64,000 nt of DNA from contig NZ_MUGS01000006.1 of assembly GCF_002222055.1 (NCBI RefSeq), positions 148,701 to 212,700 of the forward strand. Reading direction: 5' to 3'. Shown here piece after piece: positions 39,742-49,244 of this stretch. Below the pieces are notes generated by a model, which searched no databases, was not told where the DNA came from, and saw only the letters and a list, made by a program, of their open reading frames with translations. The position numbers and the translations under genes are program-made. The stretch is from Flavobacterium araucananum (GTDB taxonomy: Bacteria; Bacteroidota; Bacteroidia; Flavobacteriales; Flavobacteriaceae). How positions within the stretch are numbered: position 1 is the first letter of the stretch; every line of letters starts with the position of its first letter.

Positions 39742-40794
39742 ATGAGCGAACCTTTAATGGTTTTAAAAAAACCATCGTACCCTTTATTACCCTCCCTTTT
39801 GAGCTATCTGGAGCGATATGAGCGTATCTCAAAAGTATCTGTGTTCTATGATGATTTATTACGGTTTTCAGGTTCTGTAAATGTATATGATAAAAATGAA
39901 ACCGATACTTTATGGATTAGGGTTTATTATGGCGAATTTGAAAGGAATGAAATCGACCTAAACCTAAAAAAAATCTATTCGCTTTTGCACTCTGATGGAA
40001 ATAGCGAGATTATTCAGTTTCTAAATGTTGATGCAATTGACTATTGTACTTTTGGAAACTCGAAACCTTTTCGAATCAAAGTCCGTAATATCCTCAATGA
40101 TAACTACGTTCATTTTTATATTAAAAAAGCAGATGCTTCGCGAATCTACGGATTGGAATTGGAAGATATTCTTTCGCCGGATAAGATTAACTTTCTGGTC
40201 TATAAAGACACTTTGATCGAAGAACATATTATAGGGATTCCTGGTGATGTTTTTATGGATACTTTGTTGCATAATTGTACCGAGACAGAAAAATCTCAAA
40301 TTGCAAAAGAGTTCGTAAAATTTAATGAGCGCTGCATGATCAGACTTTTGGGCGATATGCGCGCTTATAATTATGTAATTGTGCCTATTCATGATTTTGA
40401 TCAGGTGGTTTATAAAATACGACCAATAGATTTTGACCAACAATGTTACGAAGGGAATTTTAAAGTTTATCGACCACAGTTTTTCAAAGAAAACTACCCG
40501 ATGATTCAATTGATTAAGGAAAAATTAGAAGATAGGTCTATTATCCAGTATAAAGATGAAGAAAGGGCAATTTTGGCTAAGCGTATACATTCTGCCGAAA
40601 ACAGAATTAAAAAGTTATTGAATATAATGTGTCATGATACCATTTCGACAGAAGAACATTTAAATCAACTAAAAATGGAATTGTACCGTTATACAAATGA
40701 TATGAAGTTTAAAAATGCCAGATCGATGGGACATATCATGTTTGCGGCATTTGAATTTATAACACGCAACTTTAAAAACACAAATTTAATCTAG
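39742..40794 (+). CDS. Uncharacterised protein with kinase-like (APH-type) motifs
   Basis: 350 residues, soluble, no signal. Not a recognised named family. Two stretches look like the active site of aminoglycoside/choline-kinase-fold enzymes. LLGDMRAYNYVIV (202-214) has Asp205 and Asn210 five apart, as in the catalytic HGDxHxxN loop. RPIDFDQQ (227-234) resembles the metal-binding IDF(D/E) motif. A preceding KINFLVYKDTLIEEHIIGIPG (148-168) could be the beta strand and hinge. The usual His before Gly-Asp is Leu here. The C-terminus is helical. Divergent from the ABC exporter. Confidence 0.6.
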   Translation: MSEPLMVLKKPSYPLLPSLLSYLERYERISKVSVFYDDLLRFSGSVNVYDKNETDTLWIRVYYGEFERNEIDLNLKKIYSLLHSDGNSEIIQFLNVDAIDYCTFGNSKPFRIKVRNILNDNYVHFYIKKADASRIYGLELEDILSPDKINFLVYKDTLIEEHIIGIPGDVFMDTLLHNCTETEKSQIAKEFVKFNERCMIRLLGDMRAYNYVIVPIHDFDQVVYKIRPIDFDQQCYEGNFKVYRPQFFKENYPMIQLIKEKLEDRSIIQYKDEERAILAKRIHSAENRIKKLLNIMCHDTISTEEHLNQLKMELYRYTNDMKFKNARSMGHIMFAAFEFITRNFKNTNLI

Positions 40795-40906: not shown

Positions 40907-41770
40907 ATGAAAAAGTTTTTTTTACTAGGCGTTTCTATTGCTTTATTGGCTTGTCAGGAACAATCAAATACTGATTTTAAGACTCTTTATTCACTTCCCA
41001 AAAAGTTAAAAGAGGTTTCCGGAATTACTTATTTTCCAGAAACCAACCTGATATATACTTTAGAAGACAGCGGAAACAAAAATGCAATTTATGCCATAAA
41101 CGCACAAGGAAAACTGACCAAAACAATTACAATTACAAATGCTACAAACGTAGATTGGGAAGATATTACCAAGGATAAAAGTGGAAATATCTATATTGGG
41201 GATTTTGGAAACAACGATAATGAGCGTAAAGATTTGTGTATTTATAAGGTTAATAAAAACCAATTGAATAAAGATCTGGCTGTAGCCGAGTATAAAATAT
41301 CATTTTCATATCCGGAACAAACAGAATTTCCACCCAAAAAAAAGGAATTGTTTTATGATGTAGAAGGTTTTTTTGAACACGGAAATTACTTTTACCTGTT
41401 TACGAAAAACAGAAGCAAAAACTTTGACGGCACAGCATTTATTTATAAAATATTAAATGCGCCCGGAACCCAAAAAGCAACTAAAATTGGAGAATTTAAA
41501 ACCTGCAATAACTACAATCATTGTGTGCTAACCGGAGCAACGATAAGTCCGGATGGTAAAAAAGTAGTTTTACTAAGCCACGATAAAATAGTTTTGTTTA
41601 AAGGATATAAAGGCGATTTGTTTAATAAAGGCTCTCAAACCGAAATTATGTTAAATCACTTTTCTCAAAAAGAAGCCATCGTTTTTAAAGATAATAATAC
41701 GTTACTAATTGCCGACGAAAAAACAAACAAAGCAATAGGAGGTAAGGTTTATGAGTTTAAACTAAAGTAA
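40907..41770 (+). CDS. SdiA-regulated/propeller-like lipoprotein
   Basis: 287 residues. Lipoprotein signal MKKFFLLGVSIALLAC (Cys16). The body shows repeated strands typical of beta-propellers: LKEVSGITYFPETNLIYTLEDSG, WEDITKDKSGNIYIGDFGNN, FYDVEGFFEHGNYFYLFTKN and LTGATISPDGKKVVLLSH, with conserved E, D and N residues at loop tips. This fits the SdiA-regulated/esterase-like-of-phytase type. Function is not established; a phosphoesterase-like role is possible from the DVEGF pattern. Convergent with the large gene at 41923. Confidence 0.65.
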   Translation: MKKFFLLGVSIALLACQEQSNTDFKTLYSLPKKLKEVSGITYFPETNLIYTLEDSGNKNAIYAINAQGKLTKTITITNATNVDWEDITKDKSGNIYIGDFGNNDNERKDLCIYKVNKNQLNKDLAVAEYKISFSYPEQTEFPPKKKELFYDVEGFFEHGNYFYLFTKNRSKNFDGTAFIYKILNAPGTQKATKIGEFKTCNNYNHCVLTGATISPDGKKVVLLSHDKIVLFKGYKGDLFNKGSQTEIMLNHFSQKEAIVFKDNNTLLIADEKTNKAIGGKVYEFKLK

Positions 41771-41922: not shown

Positions 41923-44900
41923 CTAAAAACTATAAGCAGCTCCAAAAATTACCCTTCCTTCTTCATCAGGAGATTTAAAATAAGAGATTCTGGCTGTTAG
42001 AACATTGATAGCATTCAGCCAAAGTCCACCACCATAATCCTGATGCCATTTTTTAGAACTTTCGCCATCAAGCCAGATTCTGCCATAATCAAAACCACCT
42101 AAGATTCCGTAAGTCAAAGGAGCAATTGTTTTTTGTATTTTACCAATGGTTAAACGTAAATCACTGCTTTGAGAGAAGTACGAACTTCCCAGAAAACGCT
42201 CATTTCTATAACCACGCAAATCAGTATCGCCACCCAAAGTAGCACCTTGATAAAATTCGTAATTATTGTTCAGGATTGCTTTTCCTTTAAACAGAGTTGC
42301 TAATACCAATTTTCCGTTATGATCAATTTTATGAGTAAAACCCAGTAAACTTTCGATAGTCGGAAAGTTTTGTTTCGTGTCATTCAGGTTTGTCATCCAG
42401 GTTAGAGAAGCCATAAAAGCAATTCCTAATGTAGGTTTTGCGGCAAAATCTGCATTCTTAAAAAGATATTTAAGCTTAGCCCCACCATAAACCTGACTGT
42501 CAAAAACAGTAGGATTTATAATATTGGGTAAATCAATAAATCGATTGGCAGTTTCTTCGACCCTCATTTGTTGCAACATAGGCTGGAAACTAAATTCGCT
42601 CCCATAACGCCCTACATGCCTAATTGCTCCGGCAACATTAAATTTTTGAATACGAACACGGTTATAATCCATTCCAAACGCATCCGTATTATTTGCGGTT
42701 TCATTTCCGTACCCAAAATAATTTATGGCAAAATTTGGCGTCGTATATTGCGATTCTACATCAATAACCCATTTACCCAGTAACCCCGGAAAATGTGCCA
42801 CATAGTTAAACTCTAAACCACCGGTCGCAAAGTAATAGAACGCATTTAAAACATGTCTTTGTGTATAAGGATTCTGTTTGAAATTGTTTACCGTATAGTT
42901 TAAATTAACACCTACTTTTACACCGTCATCAGGATTAAAACCTATGTTTGGGAGTCCTGATACAACATTGTATTTCGGTTTTTCATAATTATATAGGTTT
43001 ACATCATAATCATCCGTTAATTCTGTTCTTGTTTTAGAATCCAGATTATAAGTATTTTCTTTTGATTTGAAATCGTAAACAATAACTCTTTTCCCGTTTT
43101 CGATGTTATAAGTGTCATTATTTTGACCACCAATAAGACGAATTTTTATTTTCGATTTCTGATTGCCTGTTACCTGAAAAACATCATTGTCATCTAGACC
43201 ATAAATCCAGAGATTTTTAGTTTTCGAATCACTTATTTTTTTAGTGTAAACAAGTTCATCACCTTCTTTTTTAACTCTTAATACCTGAATTTCGATGCTT
43301 TTTTTCGCATTATGATTGATGATAAACTTATCTTTTTTATCTGTTCCTGCAATCATTACCGTATGGCTTAAAACATCAAAGTATCTTGAGGCATATTTTT
43401 GAAGTTCCTTTTTTCTGTTTTTTAATTTTCGCTTGATGTCTTCAATCGTTTCATCCTGCACTTCTTTTGGTAAGCCTTTAAAAGCATTATCAATATCTGT
43501 ATCGGATAAATTTTCCTGTATGTATTTAGCCTGAGCCAACCAGTCTTTTTCTTCTGTCGTTTTTAAGAAAGCCAAATCCATTGGGTAAGGTTCTCTGTTG
43601 ATCCATTTTACATTATCAATTTCATTTTTAAAACTACGCATGTGGCGCAATGCAGGAATATTCATCAAGAGCGAAAGTAATGTTCCGTCGTATTTCGAAA
43701 AAGCCTGATCGCGATCACGGGGAATAGGAATGTAAGTAACTTTGCCATCTTTTTTGTGTTCTGCCCAACGCCATTGATCGCTATGTCTGTCCCAGTCGCC
43801 AATAAGCATATCAAATAAACGTGCTTTTATATATTCATTTTGGTCAACAGCATATTTTTCGTCCTTATGAAGATTTTTCATCATGTCTTCGGTACTGATA
43901 ATATTGGTTGGATTTCCAAAATTTTTGCCATCCAAATGATTATCAGCCGGCCTTTCTTCGACCATATACAATTGGTCTCCAAAATTTGAATTAAATTCTT
44001 TAAGACCATTTTGTTTCGGAATATAGTATAAAACAGGATTTGTGTGAGCAAGACCAATTTTGTCTGCCATATCTCCAATTACAAAAGGAGTATAAGGGTG
44101 CGAAGTGGTATAAAAGTCTAATAAAAAGTTTTCAGCATACGTATCTTCAAAATCATTTACAACATATTGATCTTTAAAAGCAACAGATTGCAAAAATACT
44201 GTGGCACTTTTTTTCAAGGCACGAAGTACATATTCTCTACCTTTAGGATCTGACATTCTTAACGATACAGATTGATGTCCGCCACCTTCACGAATAGGTT
44301 TTAGACCACCCATTAAGGTGTCTAAAGTTGCTGTCCTGGCTTCAATAGGCAAACTATAATATTTTCTGTAATGATTGCCAAATAAAAATTTATGAACCAA
44401 ACTTTTCTGGGTCATTTTTTCAGAATAGATTGATGTAGTAACAGTTGCAGGGAATTTATTGTCTACAGTTGCAGCCCAGTTAATTTCTTTGGCTTTTATA
44501 ATTTCATGCTCAAAAAGTAGTTTTTCCTTGTTATTTTCATTTCCAAAAAATGAAACTTTTGTATCCCCGCTTTTAAAAATTGTTAATGTTGCATACCCAT
44601 TTCCTCCATACGAAAATTCGGTTGGATTAATTGCTCTGGCGGCTTCAGACTTTGATCCTGCACCACTTATAATTTGCTTGATATTCTCTTTATTCACGTA
44701 TTGCAAATTATGGTCATGCCCGGAAACTACAATTACATTTTTCTGTTTTTGCAAAAGTGTTTTAATACGCTTTGCATAAATAGTATATTGTTTGTTTTGA
44801 ATATCCTGCGGGCTTACGCCGGATGTTTTTCGCAATAAATTGATAAAAGAACCAATTACAGGCAAAGGTATTTTCTGTTCTAAAGGGAATAATTGTTTTT

Positions 44901-45657
44901 CCAACGAAAACTGTCCACCGTGAGTTCCGTTACTCATCAAAGGATGATGAATTGCAAGAATAACAGTTTTTTCCTGATTTTTATTTAAAAGATTTTCCAG
45001 TTCGTCAAAGAAATCTTCTCTCGTTTTAATGTCGCAATTGTCGTTTATGGTAGGGTGATTATCCCAGTCTTCCAGGAACCATTCGCTATCAACAGTAATT
45101 AGGGTTGTGGTACTGTCAATTTTCACATCTTCTATGGCACAACTTTTTCTGGGTAAAAAAGCTTTTTTATCATTAAGATATTTAGTGACAAAGTCAGCCT
45201 GACGTTCCAGACCTTTTATACCATTATACCAATCATGATTTCCGGGAATAACAATTGTTTTTCCTTTAAAACCTTTCGTTAATTTTAATTGATTCGTTAG
45301 TTTGGTTTCAGCCAAAGCTTTCTCTGCAGCATTGTCATCACTTGGATATCCCTTCGGATAAATATTATCTCCCAAAAAAAGTAAAGTTGCCTTTTTATTC
45401 GATTTCTTTAATTTTTGGTGTAATAATTCTAATGTTTGCTGTGCCTGTTCCTCATCTGCGTTTCCGGCATCACCAACTAAATAGATAGTGTGTGCAATTT
45501 TTATGGTATCTGTTGCGTTTTCCGTTTCGTTGGCACTAACATTTTTGCCATATTGCGCTTTGTGAGTGGCACAGGAATAAACCAGCAGCAAAATAACTAT
45601 TGCTAAAGAGTACGTTTTAATTTTAGTAATAAAATGATTATCCAAAAACAATTTCAT
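41923..45657 (-). CDS. Metallophosphoesterase, kinase-like domain and Omp85-type barrel fusion
   Basis: 1244 residues, unusually composite. Lipoprotein-like start (LLLVYSC, Cys29). A metallophosphoesterase spans about 55-375 with all five blocks: GDAG (62-65), GDNIY (96-100), GNHDWY (139-144), IHHP (236-239) and SGHDHN (312-317). A middle domain (about 440-660) has kinase-like features: GGGHQSVSLRM then YVLRALKK (476-483), YMVEERP (564-570), GDWDRHSDQW (620-629) and PIPRDRDQAF (644-653). The C-terminal barrel (about 890-1244) has the Omp85 RGYR motif at 1148 and ends in Phe. Function unknown; likely surface phosphate chemistry at the outer membrane. Confidence 0.8.
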   Translation of the reverse strand: MKLFLDNHFITKIKTYSLAIVILLLVYSCATHKAQYGKNVSANETENATDTIKIAHTIYLVGDAGNADEEQAQQTLELLHQKLKKSNKKATLLFLGDNIYPKGYPSDDNAAEKALAETKLTNQLKLTKGFKGKTIVIPGNHDWYNGIKGLERQADFVTKYLNDKKAFLPRKSCAIEDVKIDSTTTLITVDSEWFLEDWDNHPTINDNCDIKTREDFFDELENLLNKNQEKTVILAIHHPLMSNGTHGGQFSLEKQLFPLEQKIPLPVIGSFINLLRKTSGVSPQDIQNKQYTIYAKRIKTLLQKQKNVIVVSGHDHNLQYVNKENIKQIISGAGSKSEAARAINPTEFSYGGNGYATLTIFKSGDTKVSFFGNENNKEKLLFEHEIIKAKEINWAATVDNKFPATVTTSIYSEKMTQKSLVHKFLFGNHYRKYYSLPIEARTATLDTLMGGLKPIREGGGHQSVSLRMSDPKGREYVLRALKKSATVFLQSVAFKDQYVVNDFEDTYAENFLLDFYTTSHPYTPFVIGDMADKIGLAHTNPVLYYIPKQNGLKEFNSNFGDQLYMVEERPADNHLDGKNFGNPTNIISTEDMMKNLHKDEKYAVDQNEYIKARLFDMLIGDWDRHSDQWRWAEHKKDGKVTYIPIPRDRDQAFSKYDGTLLSLLMNIPALRHMRSFKNEIDNVKWINREPYPMDLAFLKTTEEKDWLAQAKYIQENLSDTDIDNAFKGLPKEVQDETIEDIKRKLKNRKKELQKYASRYFDVLSHTVMIAGTDKKDKFIINHNAKKSIEIQVLRVKKEGDELVYTKKISDSKTKNLWIYGLDDNDVFQVTGNQKSKIKIRLIGGQNNDTYNIENGKRVIVYDFKSKENTYNLDSKTRTELTDDYDVNLYNYEKPKYNVVSGLPNIGFNPDDGVKVGVNLNYTVNNFKQNPYTQRHVLNAFYYFATGGLEFNYVAHFPGLLGKWVIDVESQYTTPNFAINYFGYGNETANNTDAFGMDYNRVRIQKFNVAGAIRHVGRYGSEFSFQPMLQQMRVEETANRFIDLPNIINPTVFDSQVYGGAKLKYLFKNADFAAKPTLGIAFMASLTWMTNLNDTKQNFPTIESLLGFTHKIDHNGKLVLATLFKGKAILNNNYEFYQGATLGGDTDLRGYRNERFLGSSYFSQSSDLRLTIGKIQKTIAPLTYGILGGFDYGRIWLDGESSKKWHQDYGGGLWLNAINVLTARISYFKSPDEEGRVIFGAAYSF

Positions 45658-45683
45658 AATTTAGTGGTGTAAAAATATTCTCT

Positions 45684-46862
45684 ATGAATTTAATAGAACA
45701 ATCCGAAGATTTCGTCAGTAATTTACTCAAAGATAAACTTTCTAATTTATATTCTTATCATAATTTTAACCATACTTTAACGGTAGTAAATGCGGTAAAA
45801 GAGCTCTGTAAAAAGGAAGATGTTAAAGGAGATGATAAAGAACAGCTTATTGTTGCCGCTTGGTTTCATGATACGGGTTATATAGAAGGTTATGAAAATC
45901 ACGAAGAAAAAAGTGTGAAAATTGCTACAGCTTTTTTAAAAGAAAAAGAACAATCAGACGAATTTATAGCAACTGTTTCAAGCTTGATTTTGGCTACCGT
46001 AAAAGAGTACATTCCTAAAACTCATTTAGAAAAAATTATTAAAGATGCTGATTTTGCTCACCTTATGGGAGCAGAATATACAACGACTTGCGAATTATTG
46101 CGTATCGAACTAAAGAACACCTGGAATTTGGATTTCTCGAACGCCGAATGGGCAAAGGAGAATTTGAACTTTTTAAGGAACAAACATCGATTTTATACAG
46201 ATTATGCCCTTAAAAAATGGCAGCCGCTAAAAGAGAAAAACCTACTTGCTGTGCAAAAGAAAATCGATAAGCAACAAAAAAAAGAAGCCGATAAAATAGA
46301 GAAAGAAAATAAAAACAAAGATAAAATCGAAAAACCGGATCGTGGTGTCGATACTTTATTTCGTGTTACGTTAGGAAATCATACGCGCTTAAGCGGAATT
46401 GCGGATAGTAAAGCCAATATTTTATTGTCTGTAAATGCGATCATTATTTCGATTGCACTTTCGTCGATTATTCCCAAATTAGACAGTCCTAAAAATGCAC
46501 ATTTAGTAATCCCTACCTTTATAATGTTGATTTCTAGTGTTGTTACTATCATCTTTGCGATTCTTTCGACCAGACCAAAAGTGACTACAGGAGTTTTTAC
46601 ACGTGAAGATATAGAGGCAAAAAAAATAAATTTACTGTTTTTTGGAAATTTCTATAAAATGCCACTTGAAGAATATGATTGGGCAATGAACGAAATGATG
46701 AAGGATCGCGATTATCTGTACTCGACCATGATCAAAGATTTATACTATCTGGGTTTGGTTTTGCAACGTAAATACAACCTGTTACGAATTGCCTATAACT
46801 TTTTTATGATCGGAATTATCATTACGGTTATAGCGTTTGTAATTGCTTTTAAATCGATTTAA
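45684..46862 (+). CDS. HD-domain phosphohydrolase fused to Pycsar effector (PycTM) domain
   Basis: 392 residues. The HD domain (1 to about 180) has His30 (YHNFNHT), His62-Asp63 (AAWFHDTGY), His73 and the KDADFAH Asp residues at 121/123. A Lys/Glu-rich linker (181-220) leads to a module matching the Pycsar transmembrane effector family (formerly DUF5706): NHTRLSGIADSKANILLSVN (232-251). Membrane helices are at about 245-263, 274-294 and 370-389. HD enzymes hydrolyse nucleotides or phosphodiesters; PycTM effectors respond to cyclic pyrimidine nucleotides. No cyclase gene is adjacent, so immunity is not implied. Divergent by 26 bp from the composite phosphoesterase gene. Confidence 0.85.
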   Translation: MNLIEQSEDFVSNLLKDKLSNLYSYHNFNHTLTVVNAVKELCKKEDVKGDDKEQLIVAAWFHDTGYIEGYENHEEKSVKIATAFLKEKEQSDEFIATVSSLILATVKEYIPKTHLEKIIKDADFAHLMGAEYTTTCELLRIELKNTWNLDFSNAEWAKENLNFLRNKHRFYTDYALKKWQPLKEKNLLAVQKKIDKQQKKEADKIEKENKNKDKIEKPDRGVDTLFRVTLGNHTRLSGIADSKANILLSVNAIIISIALSSIIPKLDSPKNAHLVIPTFIMLISSVVTIIFAILSTRPKVTTGVFTREDIEAKKINLLFFGNFYKMPLEEYDWAMNEMMKDRDYLYSTMIKDLYYLGLVLQRKYNLLRIAYNFFMIGIIITVIAFVIAFKSI

Positions 46863-46885
46863 GCTCAACTAAAATTAGTTGAGCT
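46862..46885. terminator. Palindrome spanning two convergent gene ends
   Basis: AGCTCAACTAA and TTAGTTGAGCT are perfect 11-bp inverses with AA between. The sequence covers the last base of one stop codon and the last codons of the opposite gene. No T run, so termination is uncertain. Confidence 0.6.
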
Positions 46886-49244
46886 CATCTAATAAATCCT
46901 GGTACGTAATTTTTTGTGCTACCGGATTCGCATTATTATTGATAACCTTAACACGAATCGCTCTTAAACCTGAAACACCCTGAAGATCTTCGACCTCAAA
47001 TTGTTCAATCGAAGGTTCTAAGATTTTCTTGTGTTGCAAGTATTTGATGTATTTTAAATATTCAGCTTCTTCGCTGTTTTGAGAGTAGACGATCGTAATT
47101 TTTTCTTTCTCTGTAATTCTCTCTTTTGTACCTTTTATATTCGATTTGTCGATACGTTTTTTAACCACTTCATATCTGGCATTATAAGTGCCGTCAACAT
47201 CAAAACGTTTTTCATCCATTCTAAAACGAATAGAAAGCGGCGAACTAAAGACCAAAATCAATGATGTTACATCCAGTTCATAAGGCAAAGATTCTTTAAG
47301 TTGATGGTGTTCCAGTTCCATCTCGCACAAGGTTTGCAATTGCCACAAACGCAAATTGTGCAAATACATACTATCAAAAGGTCTCGTTGGCGCAATAGAT
47401 GCCCCTATATACAAATTATGCTCGACACCATCTGTTTTAAAACGCTCATAATAATGAGGATAAATTTGTTGGGCTTCGATTTGTTTTTTATCCAGTACAG
47501 AGGCTAATCGTTTATTGATAATAGACATTGCATTATCAAATTTCTTTCTTTCCTGATAAAAAGAGCCTGTTTTTTCGTCCAGACTTTCAAAATACAAACG
47601 TTCCAGTTTTTCATTCTTCTCACTTCCTTTTGTATTCTTTAAAAGAGGATGAATTTCTTCTTCGATATAACGCTGAATCTGCTGTTCTGTATCAGCTTTT
47701 AAAGGAGAATCCAACTCGTCACGAAACGATTCTAACTCAAATTTTCTTTGTTCTAACAGGACCAGATTAGTAGTTGTTTTCTGGGATTCGAAAATCTTTA
47801 AGATCGCCGTTAGTTGATTTTTAAGATCCCTTTTTACCGTTTCGTTTCGGTGCTCAGACGAACCTTTTATATCAATTTGTCCGTATAACGGATATACGTT
47901 TTTAAACACAATTTCTTTAAAAATATAATCCTTCGTATGACCGGAATTTTGGAAATAATTTTGCGATTCTTTCTTAAATTTCCAATATACACTTGGGTGA
48001 ATTGTAGTGTATTCCCGCTGAATAATTGCGGCAATCTGGTGTTGCATATCTGTATTATAGCGATCAATTGTATCTGTAAGATACGGCAGAACCAGCTCAA
48101 GCTTAGTAGCATTCACACTATTCAGATCACGAGGATTTGTAGAAACTAACTCAACAACGCCCAATAAATGCCCGTCTTTAATAACAGGGGCAAAAACGCA
48201 ACTTTGAATGCCTTGTTTTAGCAAATGTTCTCCAAGTCTTTTGTTGGACGATCCTTCAATGAATTTTTTTACATTCGAAATCACAAAAGGTTCTTTGTTA
48301 TCCAGTAAATTTTCAAATGAACAGCCAAAAAAAGCATTTTTACAATCGACTTCCTGCTCTTTAGAAAGTAAGAAGCTTTGAAGTTGGTTATCAAATTTAA
48401 CAGGTCTGATAAATTTTTCTTCTTCCGGATTATAAATGATAAAACCTACTTTTAGATCCGGAATCTTAAAGATTGATTTAAAAATGTTTGTTACAATATC
48501 ATCCGTTGCAACTGTTTTTGCATCCGGTTTAAGCAAATTACTTTTTAAATTTGAAATGGCACTTTCTGTCGTTGCATCAAATAAAGAAACAATTCCAAAA
48601 CCTTTTAATATCCAGCTCCCTTGAGGGAATTTTGATTTCCAAAGCTCTATATCACCGTAATTATCCATCAATAAATCAATGTCGTCCTGAGTAAGGTCTA
48701 AAGCGTTTTCTGTTGGAATTATTTCCATAAAATCAGCATTATACAAAATGCGATAATGTTTCTCGACTCCGTCTTCATCCGGAATATCATAGAAAAAAGG
48801 TTTATTAAAATCTATTTTCTGCTTATAATAAACCCCTAAAATAAGGCAACAGTTGTTGACATAGAACTGGTGATCATCAAAATCACGAATTTCCATATTA
48901 AATTCATCTCCTGCATTGCGCAAAATTTTCTTGAAACGATCTGTATAATTGAATGATATATTTTGAAAAGGAATCGTAACTGCTTTTATTTCATTTTGAG
49001 TTAATGCCGTAGGAAATAAATCAGCCAGTAAATTTTTGATTAAAGCTTCATTGTTTTTAATGATAGAGAAATCCTGGATACCAGTCCTGAATTCAGGAAT
49101 TGGTTCTATTTGTTTTAATATGGCTTTGGCGTAGTTTGCCCGATAATCAACATTTGATAAAGCAATTTCTTCAAAAGATTCTATTAGTTTATGAAATGAG
49201 ATGATAGTGGTAAAGGGACTTTCTTTGTATAAATGAATATCCAT
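46875..49244 (-). CDS. Large GAF-domain protein of unknown role
   Basis: 789 residues, cytoplasmic, no signal or helices in the membrane. One GAF domain is readable at about 260-415 (VGFIIYNPEEEKFIRPVKFD, then IQSCVFAPVIKDGHLLGVVELVS). Regions before (1-250) and after (430-789) match no family I know; the C-terminal half is helical and charged, ending in AQKITYQDLLDELN. No kinase, cyclase, GGDEF or HTH motif was seen. Convergent with the HD-PycTM gene. Possibly a ligand-binding scaffold. Confidence 0.7.
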   Translation of the reverse strand: MDIHLYKESPFTTIISFHKLIESFEEIALSNVDYRANYAKAILKQIEPIPEFRTGIQDFSIIKNNEALIKNLLADLFPTALTQNEIKAVTIPFQNISFNYTDRFKKILRNAGDEFNMEIRDFDDHQFYVNNCCLILGVYYKQKIDFNKPFFYDIPDEDGVEKHYRILYNADFMEIIPTENALDLTQDDIDLLMDNYGDIELWKSKFPQGSWILKGFGIVSLFDATTESAISNLKSNLLKPDAKTVATDDIVTNIFKSIFKIPDLKVGFIIYNPEEEKFIRPVKFDNQLQSFLLSKEQEVDCKNAFFGCSFENLLDNKEPFVISNVKKFIEGSSNKRLGEHLLKQGIQSCVFAPVIKDGHLLGVVELVSTNPRDLNSVNATKLELVLPYLTDTIDRYNTDMQHQIAAIIQREYTTIHPSVYWKFKKESQNYFQNSGHTKDYIFKEIVFKNVYPLYGQIDIKGSSEHRNETVKRDLKNQLTAILKIFESQKTTTNLVLLEQRKFELESFRDELDSPLKADTEQQIQRYIEEEIHPLLKNTKGSEKNEKLERLYFESLDEKTGSFYQERKKFDNAMSIINKRLASVLDKKQIEAQQIYPHYYERFKTDGVEHNLYIGASIAPTRPFDSMYLHNLRLWQLQTLCEMELEHHQLKESLPYELDVTSLILVFSSPLSIRFRMDEKRFDVDGTYNARYEVVKKRIDKSNIKGTKERITEKEKITIVYSQNSEEAEYLKYIKYLQHKKILEPSIEQFEVEDLQGVSGLRAIRVKVINNNANPVAQKITYQDLLDELN

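Follow-up and report, generated by a model that had tools for sequence, protein, structure and literature searches.

The closest described relatives of the protein reported here are the Omp85 proteins of the 'Metallo' subfamily (Heinz and Lithgow 2014, PMC4104836, in part), in which a PF00149 domain is carried on an Omp85 barrel; that text terms the domain a metalloprotease and never uses the word kinase. An enzyme domain on an Omp85 barrel is also found in the patatin–Omp85 protein PlpD (PMC11116518, in part), which differs in being a patatin-like lipase with a POTRA domain, without kinase and without phosphatase. A review (PMC10202324, in part) counts a Riemerella metallophosphoesterase (Niu 2021), a possible orthologue, among the T9SS effectors. 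Regarding the single enzymatic parts, ACP5, the tartrate-resistant purple acid phosphatase, shares the motifs GDxG, GDNxY, GNH, HH and GHDHNLQY...SGAG with the Flavobacterium phosphatase, whereas the latter is bacterial and fused to a kinase and a barrel. CtkA/HipA-type kinases, which have neither barrel nor phosphatase, provide the best Foldseek matches of the middle domain, and the GxxDRHxxxW loop is common to CtkA; the PF07804 (HipA_C) model, however, gives no match for the fusion protein. The CotH/Fam20 secretory kinases share the kinase fold and aligning catalytic and metal Asp regions, whereas the Flavobacterium domain has no PF08757 match, possesses a DRH loop nearer to CtkA/HipA and is attached to a barrel and a phosphatase. 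Fam20 kinases act outside the cytosol, as is proposed below for the Flavobacterium kinase domain. Among the matches listed, the open-access literature describes no kinase joined to Omp85.

In the window, the whole 64,000-nucleotide stretch of Flavobacterium araucananum DNA that was analysed, one reading frame encodes in order a signal peptide, a metallophosphoesterase, a kinase-fold domain, an all-beta linker and an Omp85-type barrel. The reading frame and every motif quoted in the preliminary description are present there. Its features, in window positions, are the following:

41923..45657, minus strand: whole fusion ORF (P0001), 1244 aa, with ATG start and no internal stop
45571..45657, minus strand: signal peptide ending in Cys29, a probable lipobox (sequence)
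44488..45510, minus strand: metallophosphoesterase, residues 50-390, with a purple-acid-phosphatase/TRAP-like motif set including Tyr100 (PF00149, 9.5e-13)
43348..44460, minus strand: predicted kinase-fold domain, residues 400-770, without a Pfam family (structure prediction, Foldseek, VIA-align, hhalign, conservation)
44263..44286, minus strand: glycine-rich loop GGGHQSVS, residues 458-465 (G458 and G459 in 141/146)
44209..44223, minus strand: basic residues R479...K483 at the strand-3 position, putative nucleotide-binding position with Arg for Lys (143/146 and 141/146)
43771..43800, minus strand: catalytic loop GDWDRHSDQW, residues 620-629, with D623 as putative catalytic base (D623 139/146, D621 145/146; alignment to CtkA GNFDRHNGNW)
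43699..43722, minus strand: putative metal-binding motif PRDRDQAF, residues 646-653 (D648 145/146, D650 142/146; aligned with CotH iPyDyDntfG)
42973..43347, minus strand: all-beta linker, residues 771-895, strands 766-880 (predicted model)
41932..42972, minus strand: 16-strand Omp85-type beta-barrel, strands within residues 896-1242 (model; NF047779 below its cut-off)
42205..42216, minus strand: barrel motif RGYR, residues 1148-1151 (LRGYR; R1148 in 107/108 full fusions)

Along the 1244-aa product, the phosphoesterase motifs are GD63AG, GD97NIY100, GN140HD, H237H238P and GH314DH316, the kinase-like motifs are GGG458-460, R479/K483, E567E568, GD621WD623RH and PRD648RD650QAF, and the barrel motif is RGYR 1148-1151. 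These motifs are not due to chance, because they are near-invariant in relatives and near-full-length homologues occur in other genomes; the same evidence rules out that the middle region is a chance ORF or a frameshift product. Among 60 genomes searched, the one with the window included, a homologue is present in 32 and missing from 28; it is close to full length in every one of the 32 except for one copy cut off by a contig end. Of 395 Bacteroidota genomes in a sample of the phylum, 142 contain the middle domain and 253 do not. A contig scan yielded at least 594 stretches, at least 586 of them confirmed, and 80 were kept. The 146 copies analysed, all sampled via the kinase domain and within Bacteroidota, comprise 108 full fusions, 25 barrel-kinases without phosphatase, 8 kinases with the linker and 5 kinases alone, and in two genomes (L145, L146) the parts occur as three adjacent genes. 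Since the fusion, the phosphatase-less barrel-kinases and the three-gene form all occur, phosphatase, kinase and barrel belong together. The plasmid search returned five records (Hymenobacter 3, Parabacteroides 1, Persicobacter 1) with 30-35% identity; the fusion is therefore rare on plasmids. Judged by eye, the N-termini of these various forms, fused and separate, resemble export signals or an anchor.

The N-terminal domain is inferred from its motifs to be a TRAP-like purple acid phosphatase, with predicted activity. As in purple acid phosphatases, candidate metal-ligand residues are found in five motifs, the Tyr ligand included, and human TRAP is matched at 1.2e-7 with the A3 profile. H237, H238, H314 and H316 are retained in all 108 full fusions, D97 in 107, D63 in 106 and Y100 in 103; we take these residues to have the ligand roles assigned in purple acid phosphatases. 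The PF00149 match and the near-invariant ligands bear out the phosphoesterase that the preliminary description had placed in front of the kinase-like region, and H141, its proposed mutation target, is part of the GNH motif. Cys29 is kept in 100 of the 108 full fusions, and a simple lipobox pattern fits 71/108, with start codons assigned mechanically. At the C-terminal end, the expected Omp85-type barrel is recovered in the model, with 16 strands counted, a TMt of 0.72 to the TamA barrel 4n74 and the RGYR sequence, which we take to be the Omp85 RGF/RGY barrel motif. No POTRA domain is seen in residues 766-880, for which the model predicts strands and no helices; the Omp85 catalogue (PMC4104836, in part) admits POTRA-less members as 'noNterm'. 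With PF00149 and an Omp85 barrel in one chain, the fusion likely belongs to the 2014 'Metallo' set (PMC4104836, in part). The domain identities given at the outset therefore stand, while two remarks need correction. The statement that no such system had been described is no more than half right, since fusions of PF00149 to Omp85 had already been catalogued as 'Metallo', in a text that lacks the word kinase. Furthermore, the combination of a lipoprotein Cys and a barrel, called odd, is ordinary in Bacteroidota, as the Omp85 'Lipo' proteins (PMC4104836, in part) and TamL illustrate.

The middle domain is modelled with a kinase-like fold, whose nearest matches are CtkA, CotH and PI4KII. The AlphaFold2 model reaches a pLDDT of 88.8 and a pTM of 0.88, and Foldseek returns only six chains below 0.001, all of them CtkA (best 3.3e-5; TM 0.42/0.55 at 8 A), followed by HipA 4pu3 (1.2e-3), RIO2 and PI4KII. 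VIA-align, whose stated typical best Z is 7-8 without clear relatives and 14 for mostly helical models, gives PI4KIIb (Z 15.1, rmsd 4.2, 248 aligned), CotH 5jd9 (Z 15.0, rmsd 4.0, 248 aligned) and CtkA (Z 13.3, rmsd 4.4, 230 aligned). In a viral fold library the rows are mostly kinase-named or unnamed, the best being a phage protein named PI3/4-kinase (1.2e-6), which adds nothing further to the assignment. At the profile level, hhalign matches the domain to CotH at 7e-4, five unrelated profiles lying at 0.095-0.62, with a probability of 26% for CotH and 1.4% for HipA. Fold and paired catalytic and metal Asp residues are thus both found in common with CotH, for which D228/D251 serve as the reference pair (PMC7821199, in part). 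A profile HMM aligns GDWDRHxDQW to GNFDRHNGNW of CtkA; by sequence alone, CtkA scores E 0.04, behind two chains of ribosomal proteins. Residues 395-790 of the window's own protein have no Pfam match, and PF08757 (CotH kinase) matches neither P0001 up to E 1 nor anything in its own genome. Forty relatives gave scattered weak Pfam matches (best EnY2, 0.0022, 12 members), judged to be chance. Partial NCBIfam matches to SbcD, GlgX and Lnt were ignored as below their cut-offs, and the pan-kinome family Lani_1194, also present in Flavobacteriales, was rejected as the same family, being a kinase–methyltransferase (PMC9758233 section 8, in part). PADLOC reports weak matches on P0001 to PDC-M03A (0.0037, 604-752) and PDC-S10 (0.0089).

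The proposed kinase fold withstood the refutation test set with it, as the middle region is predicted to fold in this way and its DRH and DRD residues are conserved; D623, a suggested mutation target, fits the catalytic Asp. R613, D616, G658 and R748 are present in all 146 kinase copies; D623 or D648 is lost in seven. A correction concerns the Lys of the preliminary description: the usual Lys position, as placed from predicted strand 475-480, is occupied by Arg479, with Lys483 four residues on, and either of the two may contact the nucleotide.

The gene neighbourhood is as follows:

45658..45683, no strand: intergenic gap of 26 bp separating the start codon of the fusion from that of the divergently oriented HD-PycTM gene (the most frequent length among relatives, 22/74)
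45684..46862, plus strand: P0003, HD domain and PycTM membrane domain, conserved neighbour (domain match and recurrence)
46875..49244, minus strand: P0004, 789-aa GAF-domain protein, conserved neighbour (domain match and recurrence)
40907..41770, plus strand: P0005, 287-aa SdiA-regulated/phytase-like beta-propeller-type protein with a lipoprotein-like signal, conserved neighbour (domain match and recurrence)

Around the divergent gap, a promoter search found consensus-like words only, which carry no evidential weight. Across 49 loci from 21 families, PycTM recurs at 33, the beta-propeller at 27, PPK1 at 14 (8 families) and SixA at 12 (5 families), the last two counted over a shared stretch of no more than 20 kb; with a 4-Mb genome, a single gene would fall within a given 20 kb by chance in an estimated 0.5% or so of cases. 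The 40 loci collected after the pattern was first noticed include 12 with PPK1 and 9 with SixA, and 13 of the 49 have none of the five neighbours (PycTM, beta-propeller, GAF, SixA, PPK1). The PycTM match in P0003 is confirmed by Pfam and PADLOC. PycTM proteins are named for a phage-defence effector; among the five genes scanned, PADLOC found no pyrimidine cyclase (Pycsar defence).

Folds, conserved active sites, modular co-occurrence and gene neighbourhood are established computationally. We favour, with about even confidence, the reading of a bifunctional kinase/phosphatase that is anchored in the outer membrane, faces the periplasm, acts on an envelope substrate and is linked to phosphate/polyphosphate metabolism; its catalysis, substrate, donor and periplasmic side are what we infer. 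The earlier suggestion that phosphate is both added and removed at the outer membrane gains support from the kinase fold, the phosphoesterase and the barrel. The barrel, plus the Cys29 lipid in phosphatase-bearing forms, would fix the protein to the outer membrane. The CotH/CtkA-like domain, with D623 as base and D648/D650 holding the metal, would transfer phosphate to an envelope component, most probably to Ser/Thr residues of proteins bound to or passing through the outer membrane, and the TRAP-like purple acid phosphatase would remove it, which would make the mark reversible. PycTM, beta-propeller, GAF, SixA and PPK1, which recur as neighbours, set this cycle within phosphate/polyphosphate physiology. 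Counted against the bifunctional reading are its weak sequence-only support, the Foldseek TM to CtkA, the Arg for Lys, the 7/146 degenerate copies, the lipobox fit in 71/108, the 13/49 loci with none of the five neighbours, the location of PPK1 on another contig in this genome and the patchy occurrence, and against its kinase half that we know of no ATP in the periplasm. A phosphorylation cycle outside the cytoplasm, if active, raises the question of where the phosphate originates. The periplasmic location of the PlpD enzyme domain (PMC11116518, in part) was counted in favour of a periplasm-facing protein.

Among the alternatives, a PI4K-like lipid or sugar kinase with a phosphatase, acting on a lipid or surface glycan and tuning the charge of the outer-membrane inner leaflet, in a manner resembling phospholipid processing by PlpD under its barrel, is possible, although unlikely. 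PI4KII lipid kinases top the VIA-align rows, tied with CotH, whereas Foldseek puts the protein kinase CtkA first. For PlpD, likewise an enzyme fused to an Omp85 barrel, action on inner-leaflet lipids is assumed (PMC11116518, in part); yet untargeted inspection of the recurring neighbours noticed no lipid-specific gene, and the lipids of F. johnsoniae, mainly sulfonolipids, ornithine lipids and PE (PMC12045153, in part), include no obvious substrate.

We consider it doubtful that the kinase-fold domain takes phosphate from exported polyphosphate instead of ATP, or that the phosphatase trims polyphosphate. Polyphosphate as donor would solve the lack of periplasmic ATP, and the frequency of PPK1 and SixA (14/49 and 12/49 loci versus about 0.5% estimated chance) fits; however, no export route was identified, gene order denotes a relation and not a donor, the window's genome has its PPK1 elsewhere, on another contig, and PPK1 is split in two at one of the 14 loci (L238). 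It is equally doubtful that the kinase fold is inactive and serves for binding only, in a protein that would be a phosphate-scavenging acid phosphatase on a barrel. The Arg for Lys and the degenerate copies speak for it, as does the richness of flavobacterial phosphate scavenging in phosphatases (PMC8115612, in part), but the catalytic Asp (139/146) and the metal Asp (145/146) are kept, and most phosphatase-less barrel-kinases retain both, with 4/25 degenerate. In the phosphate-starvation results for F. johnsoniae (PMC8115612, in part), the protein was not recognised. Least probable is a type-V-like translocator barrel placing the enzymes on the cell surface, as first proposed for PlpD and also raised for the 'Metallo' subfamily (PMC4104836, in part), since later work placed the PlpD domain in the periplasm (PMC11116518, in part) and in 13 of the 146 copies the kinase chain carries no barrel.

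A more far-reaching picture, to which we give little credence, is a new extracytoplasmic system of Bacteroidota, in which a barrel-anchored kinase of a new family and a TRAP-like phosphatase share one chain, exported polyphosphate from the often-adjacent PPK1 replaces ATP as donor, PycTM/HD proteins provide a link to the cytoplasm and, in some lineages, a pseudokinase partner stands beside the active kinase. Fam20A, the pseudokinase partner of Fam20C, is the model for this last element.

We know of no earlier kinase joined to an outer-membrane barrel, so that the Flavobacterium domain, if active, would be the first; if both enzymes work, the fusion would give Gram-negative bacteria a reversible phosphate switch that operates outside the cytoplasm. 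The unexplained 'Metallo' subfamily of Omp85 proteins would gain a concrete, testable activity. Furthermore, a kinase-like family without a Pfam model, present in 142/395 sampled Bacteroidota genomes, is added, and gene order ties it to polyphosphate synthesis and PycTM proteins.

The open reading frame of the fusion is intact and lies exactly where the preliminary description placed it, among the following genes (residue numbers refer to the fusion protein):

39742-40794 (+): 350-aa protein
40907-41770 (+): beta-propeller-type gene
41923-45657 (-): fusion, 1244 aa; phosphatase, kinase domain, linker and barrel
45684-46862 (+): protein joining an HD domain to a PycTM membrane domain of the Pycsar effector type, a kinase-family neighbour phylum-wide
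46875-49244 (-): 789-aa GAF-domain protein

Metallophos (9.5e-13) is the sole Pfam family above cut-off in the fusion protein, and its NCBIfam Omp85 barrel match lies below cut-off (68.3 bits vs 200). The whole-protein model (residues 50-1244 with 35 relatives; pLDDT 83.0, pTM 0.81) contains sixteen barrel strands and an all-beta linker at 766-880; in Foldseek it retrieves GAP50 first, then mitochondrial Sam50-complex, BamA and TamA chains. Human tartrate-resistant acid phosphatase (TRAP) aligns with the A3 profile at 1.2e-7, GHDHNLQY...SGAG included, so the phosphoesterase domain is, judged by its sequence, of the purple-acid-phosphatase type. Its H237, H238, H314 and H316 are present in all 108 full fusions, D97 in 107, D63 in 106, and Y100 and N140 in 103 each.

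The kinase-like fold proposed for the middle region is borne out by structure prediction (residues 395-790 with 39 relatives; pLDDT 88.8, pTM 0.88). Foldseek against the PDB returns six chains at E < 0.001, every one the Helicobacter kinase CtkA (best row 3.3e-5, TM 0.42/0.55, rmsd 8.0), followed by HipA, RIO2 and PI4KII, with Golgi casein kinase at 0.01. Realignment with VIA-align 2 scores PI4KIIb at 15.1 (rmsd 4.2, 248 aligned), CotH at 15.0 (4.0, 248), CtkA at 13.3 (4.4, 230) and HipA at 11.3. Support from sequence comparison is weaker than that from the fold: CtkA reaches E 0.04, under two ribosomal-protein rows, with GDWDRHxDQW sitting on GNFDRHNGNW in the profile alignment. With hhalign, CotH relatives from the same phylum give 7e-4 (probability 26%), PIPRDRDQAF falling on iPyDyDntfG, and HipA gives 0.037 (1.4%), against a background of 0.095-0.62 for five unrelated same-locus profiles; the linker profile, overlapping the query, cannot serve as a control. 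The CotH mutants D228Q and D251A are reported as inactive (PMC7821199).

The invariant columns of a 15-sequence alignment are GGG, R479, K483, EER, D621-H625, DQW, D648, D650, Q651 and F653. Among 146 kinase-domain copies (80 similarity-chosen loci, the window and 58 loci retrieved by position), R613, D616, G658 and R748 occur in all, D621 and D648 in 145, R479, R624 and E567 in 143, D650 in 142, K483, G458 and G459 in 141, and D623 and H625 in 139; the DRH and DRD residues singled out earlier are thus conserved. An arginine at the kinase lysine position (R479) is unusual, yet one is also inferred in a different family of kinases (PMC9758233). In the 350-aa protein, found in 66/80 Flavobacteriaceae genomes (own counted; mostly 57-67% identity), GDMRxYNY...IDFDQQ is invariant across 12 aligned copies and reminiscent of the catalytic loop and metal-binding Asp of kinases; Pfam, NCBIfam and PADLOC gave no family match, and a profile search of the PDB found no kinase.

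A homologue of the fusion is present in 32/60 genomes (own counted; 32-85% identity), one gene being cut by a contig end; the closest named relative among the matches listed is a Flavobacterium sp. SLB02 protein (92%), making a Flavobacterium the most likely source of the window. Searched for with its own profile, the middle domain is found in 142/395 genomes of a phylum-wide Bacteroidota sample. The 146 copies comprise 108 phosphatase–kinase–linker–barrel, 25 kinase(–linker)–barrel, 8 kinase–linker and 5 kinase-alone forms, which is no census, as 80 loci were picked by full-fusion similarity and all by the kinase, leaving kinase-less chains invisible. In two genomes of one genus (loci L145, L146), these parts are split over three neighbouring genes on the same strand, one for kinase–linker, one for the phosphatase and one for the barrel. 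On an 80-tip tree (similarity-chosen loci thinned to every sixth; midpoint-rooted, root state open), phosphatase presence needs 6 changes; most phosphatase-less barrel-kinases fall to one side of the root, and further ones originate inside the phosphatase-bearing side. The N-termini inspected by eye resemble a signal peptide, a lipoprotein signal or a membrane anchor. A simple lipobox pattern occurs in 71/108 full fusions, 1/25 phosphatase-less barrel-kinases and 6/8 kinase–linker chains; the lipid anchor thus seems to go with forms that have the phosphatase in front or lack the barrel.

D623 or D648 is absent in 7/146 copies. Five of these adjoin another, intact copy (L147, L148, L149, L224 and L243, the degenerate copies having lost D623) and two do not (L153, L217). 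The side-by-side arrangement suggests kinase/pseudokinase partners, resembling Fam20C and its pseudokinase partner Fam20A (PMC4421857).

In 80 similarity-chosen loci plus the window, mostly Flavobacteriales, the HD-PycTM gene accompanies the fusion in 74/81, the GAF protein in 70/81, where it is kept near the HD-PycTM gene, and the propeller gene in 69/81; the next most frequent neighbour reaches 20/81. The HD-PycTM gene is divergent and directly adjacent in 70/81. The start-to-start gap has a median of 26 bp and is 0-60 bp in 55/74 and negative in 11/74, with starts called mechanically; the spacing of 26 bp seen in the window (45657-45684) recurs in 22/74 relatives having the gene. Each promoter therefore probably lies inside the opposite gene, so that transcription of the two may be mutually excluding or tied.

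Across 49 kinase–barrel loci (drawn from 21 families, with a single locus for nearly every genus), PycTM occurs in 33, the propeller in 27, polyphosphate kinase (PPK1) in 14 (8 families), SixA in 12 (5 families), GAF in 9, and none of these in 13; none of the five was found in 9 further loci without a kinase–barrel chain. The pattern was first noticed in nine of the 49 (L150-L158), also the source of the profiles for PPK1 and SixA and of the second one for the propeller; the 40 fetched later give PycTM 27, propeller 21, PPK1 12, SixA 9, GAF 9 and none 10. The 34 HD-PycTM-profile matches divide into 22 HD+PycTM, 11 PycTM only and 1 HD only; Pfam confirmation of PPK1, SixA and HD-PycTM covers L150, and PPK1 is split in two pieces in L238. 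An HD-PycTM–SixA–PPK1 cluster, mostly with a propeller gene, recurs in several Bacteroidota families (L150, L152, L225, L239-L241, L243, L246). In the genome that the window comes from, SixA and PPK1 are found on a different contig from the fusion, together with the beginning of an ORF resembling Ppx. With HD-PycTM conserved phylum-wide beside the kinase family, PycTM may serve a purpose other than defence.

The preliminary description knew of no system with this architecture. The PF00149–Omp85 fusion is in fact known (PMC4104836), from a paper whose text lacks the word "kinase". Among the titles listed in open-access literature searches for a kinase on Omp85, no description was found of the kinase-like family, its outer-membrane-barrel placement, the pairing with a phosphatase or the PycTM/propeller/PPK1 neighbourhood. 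A lipoprotein cysteine with a barrel, previously considered odd, is ordinary, lipidated Omp85 proteins being normal in Bacteroidota.

The simplest reading would be a barrel-anchored enzyme pair on the periplasmic side, since the enzyme of PlpD, an Omp85 enzyme fusion, is reported to stay in the periplasm, PlpD loss leading to higher phospholipid levels (PMC11116518). The polyphosphate genes next door in related loci prompt the conjecture of a phosphate donor other than ATP. ATP is not known to occur in the periplasm, the chief problem for a periplasmic kinase; Fam20 kinases are also active outside the cytosol. A lipid or glycan is a possible substrate; a protein would be preferred, given that CtkA and CotH phosphorylate proteins and that phosphatases of the TRAP type have phosphoproteins as substrates. 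Since kinase and phosphatase are both conserved in one chain, the two would mark a substrate in the envelope reversibly, one adding phosphate and the other removing it.
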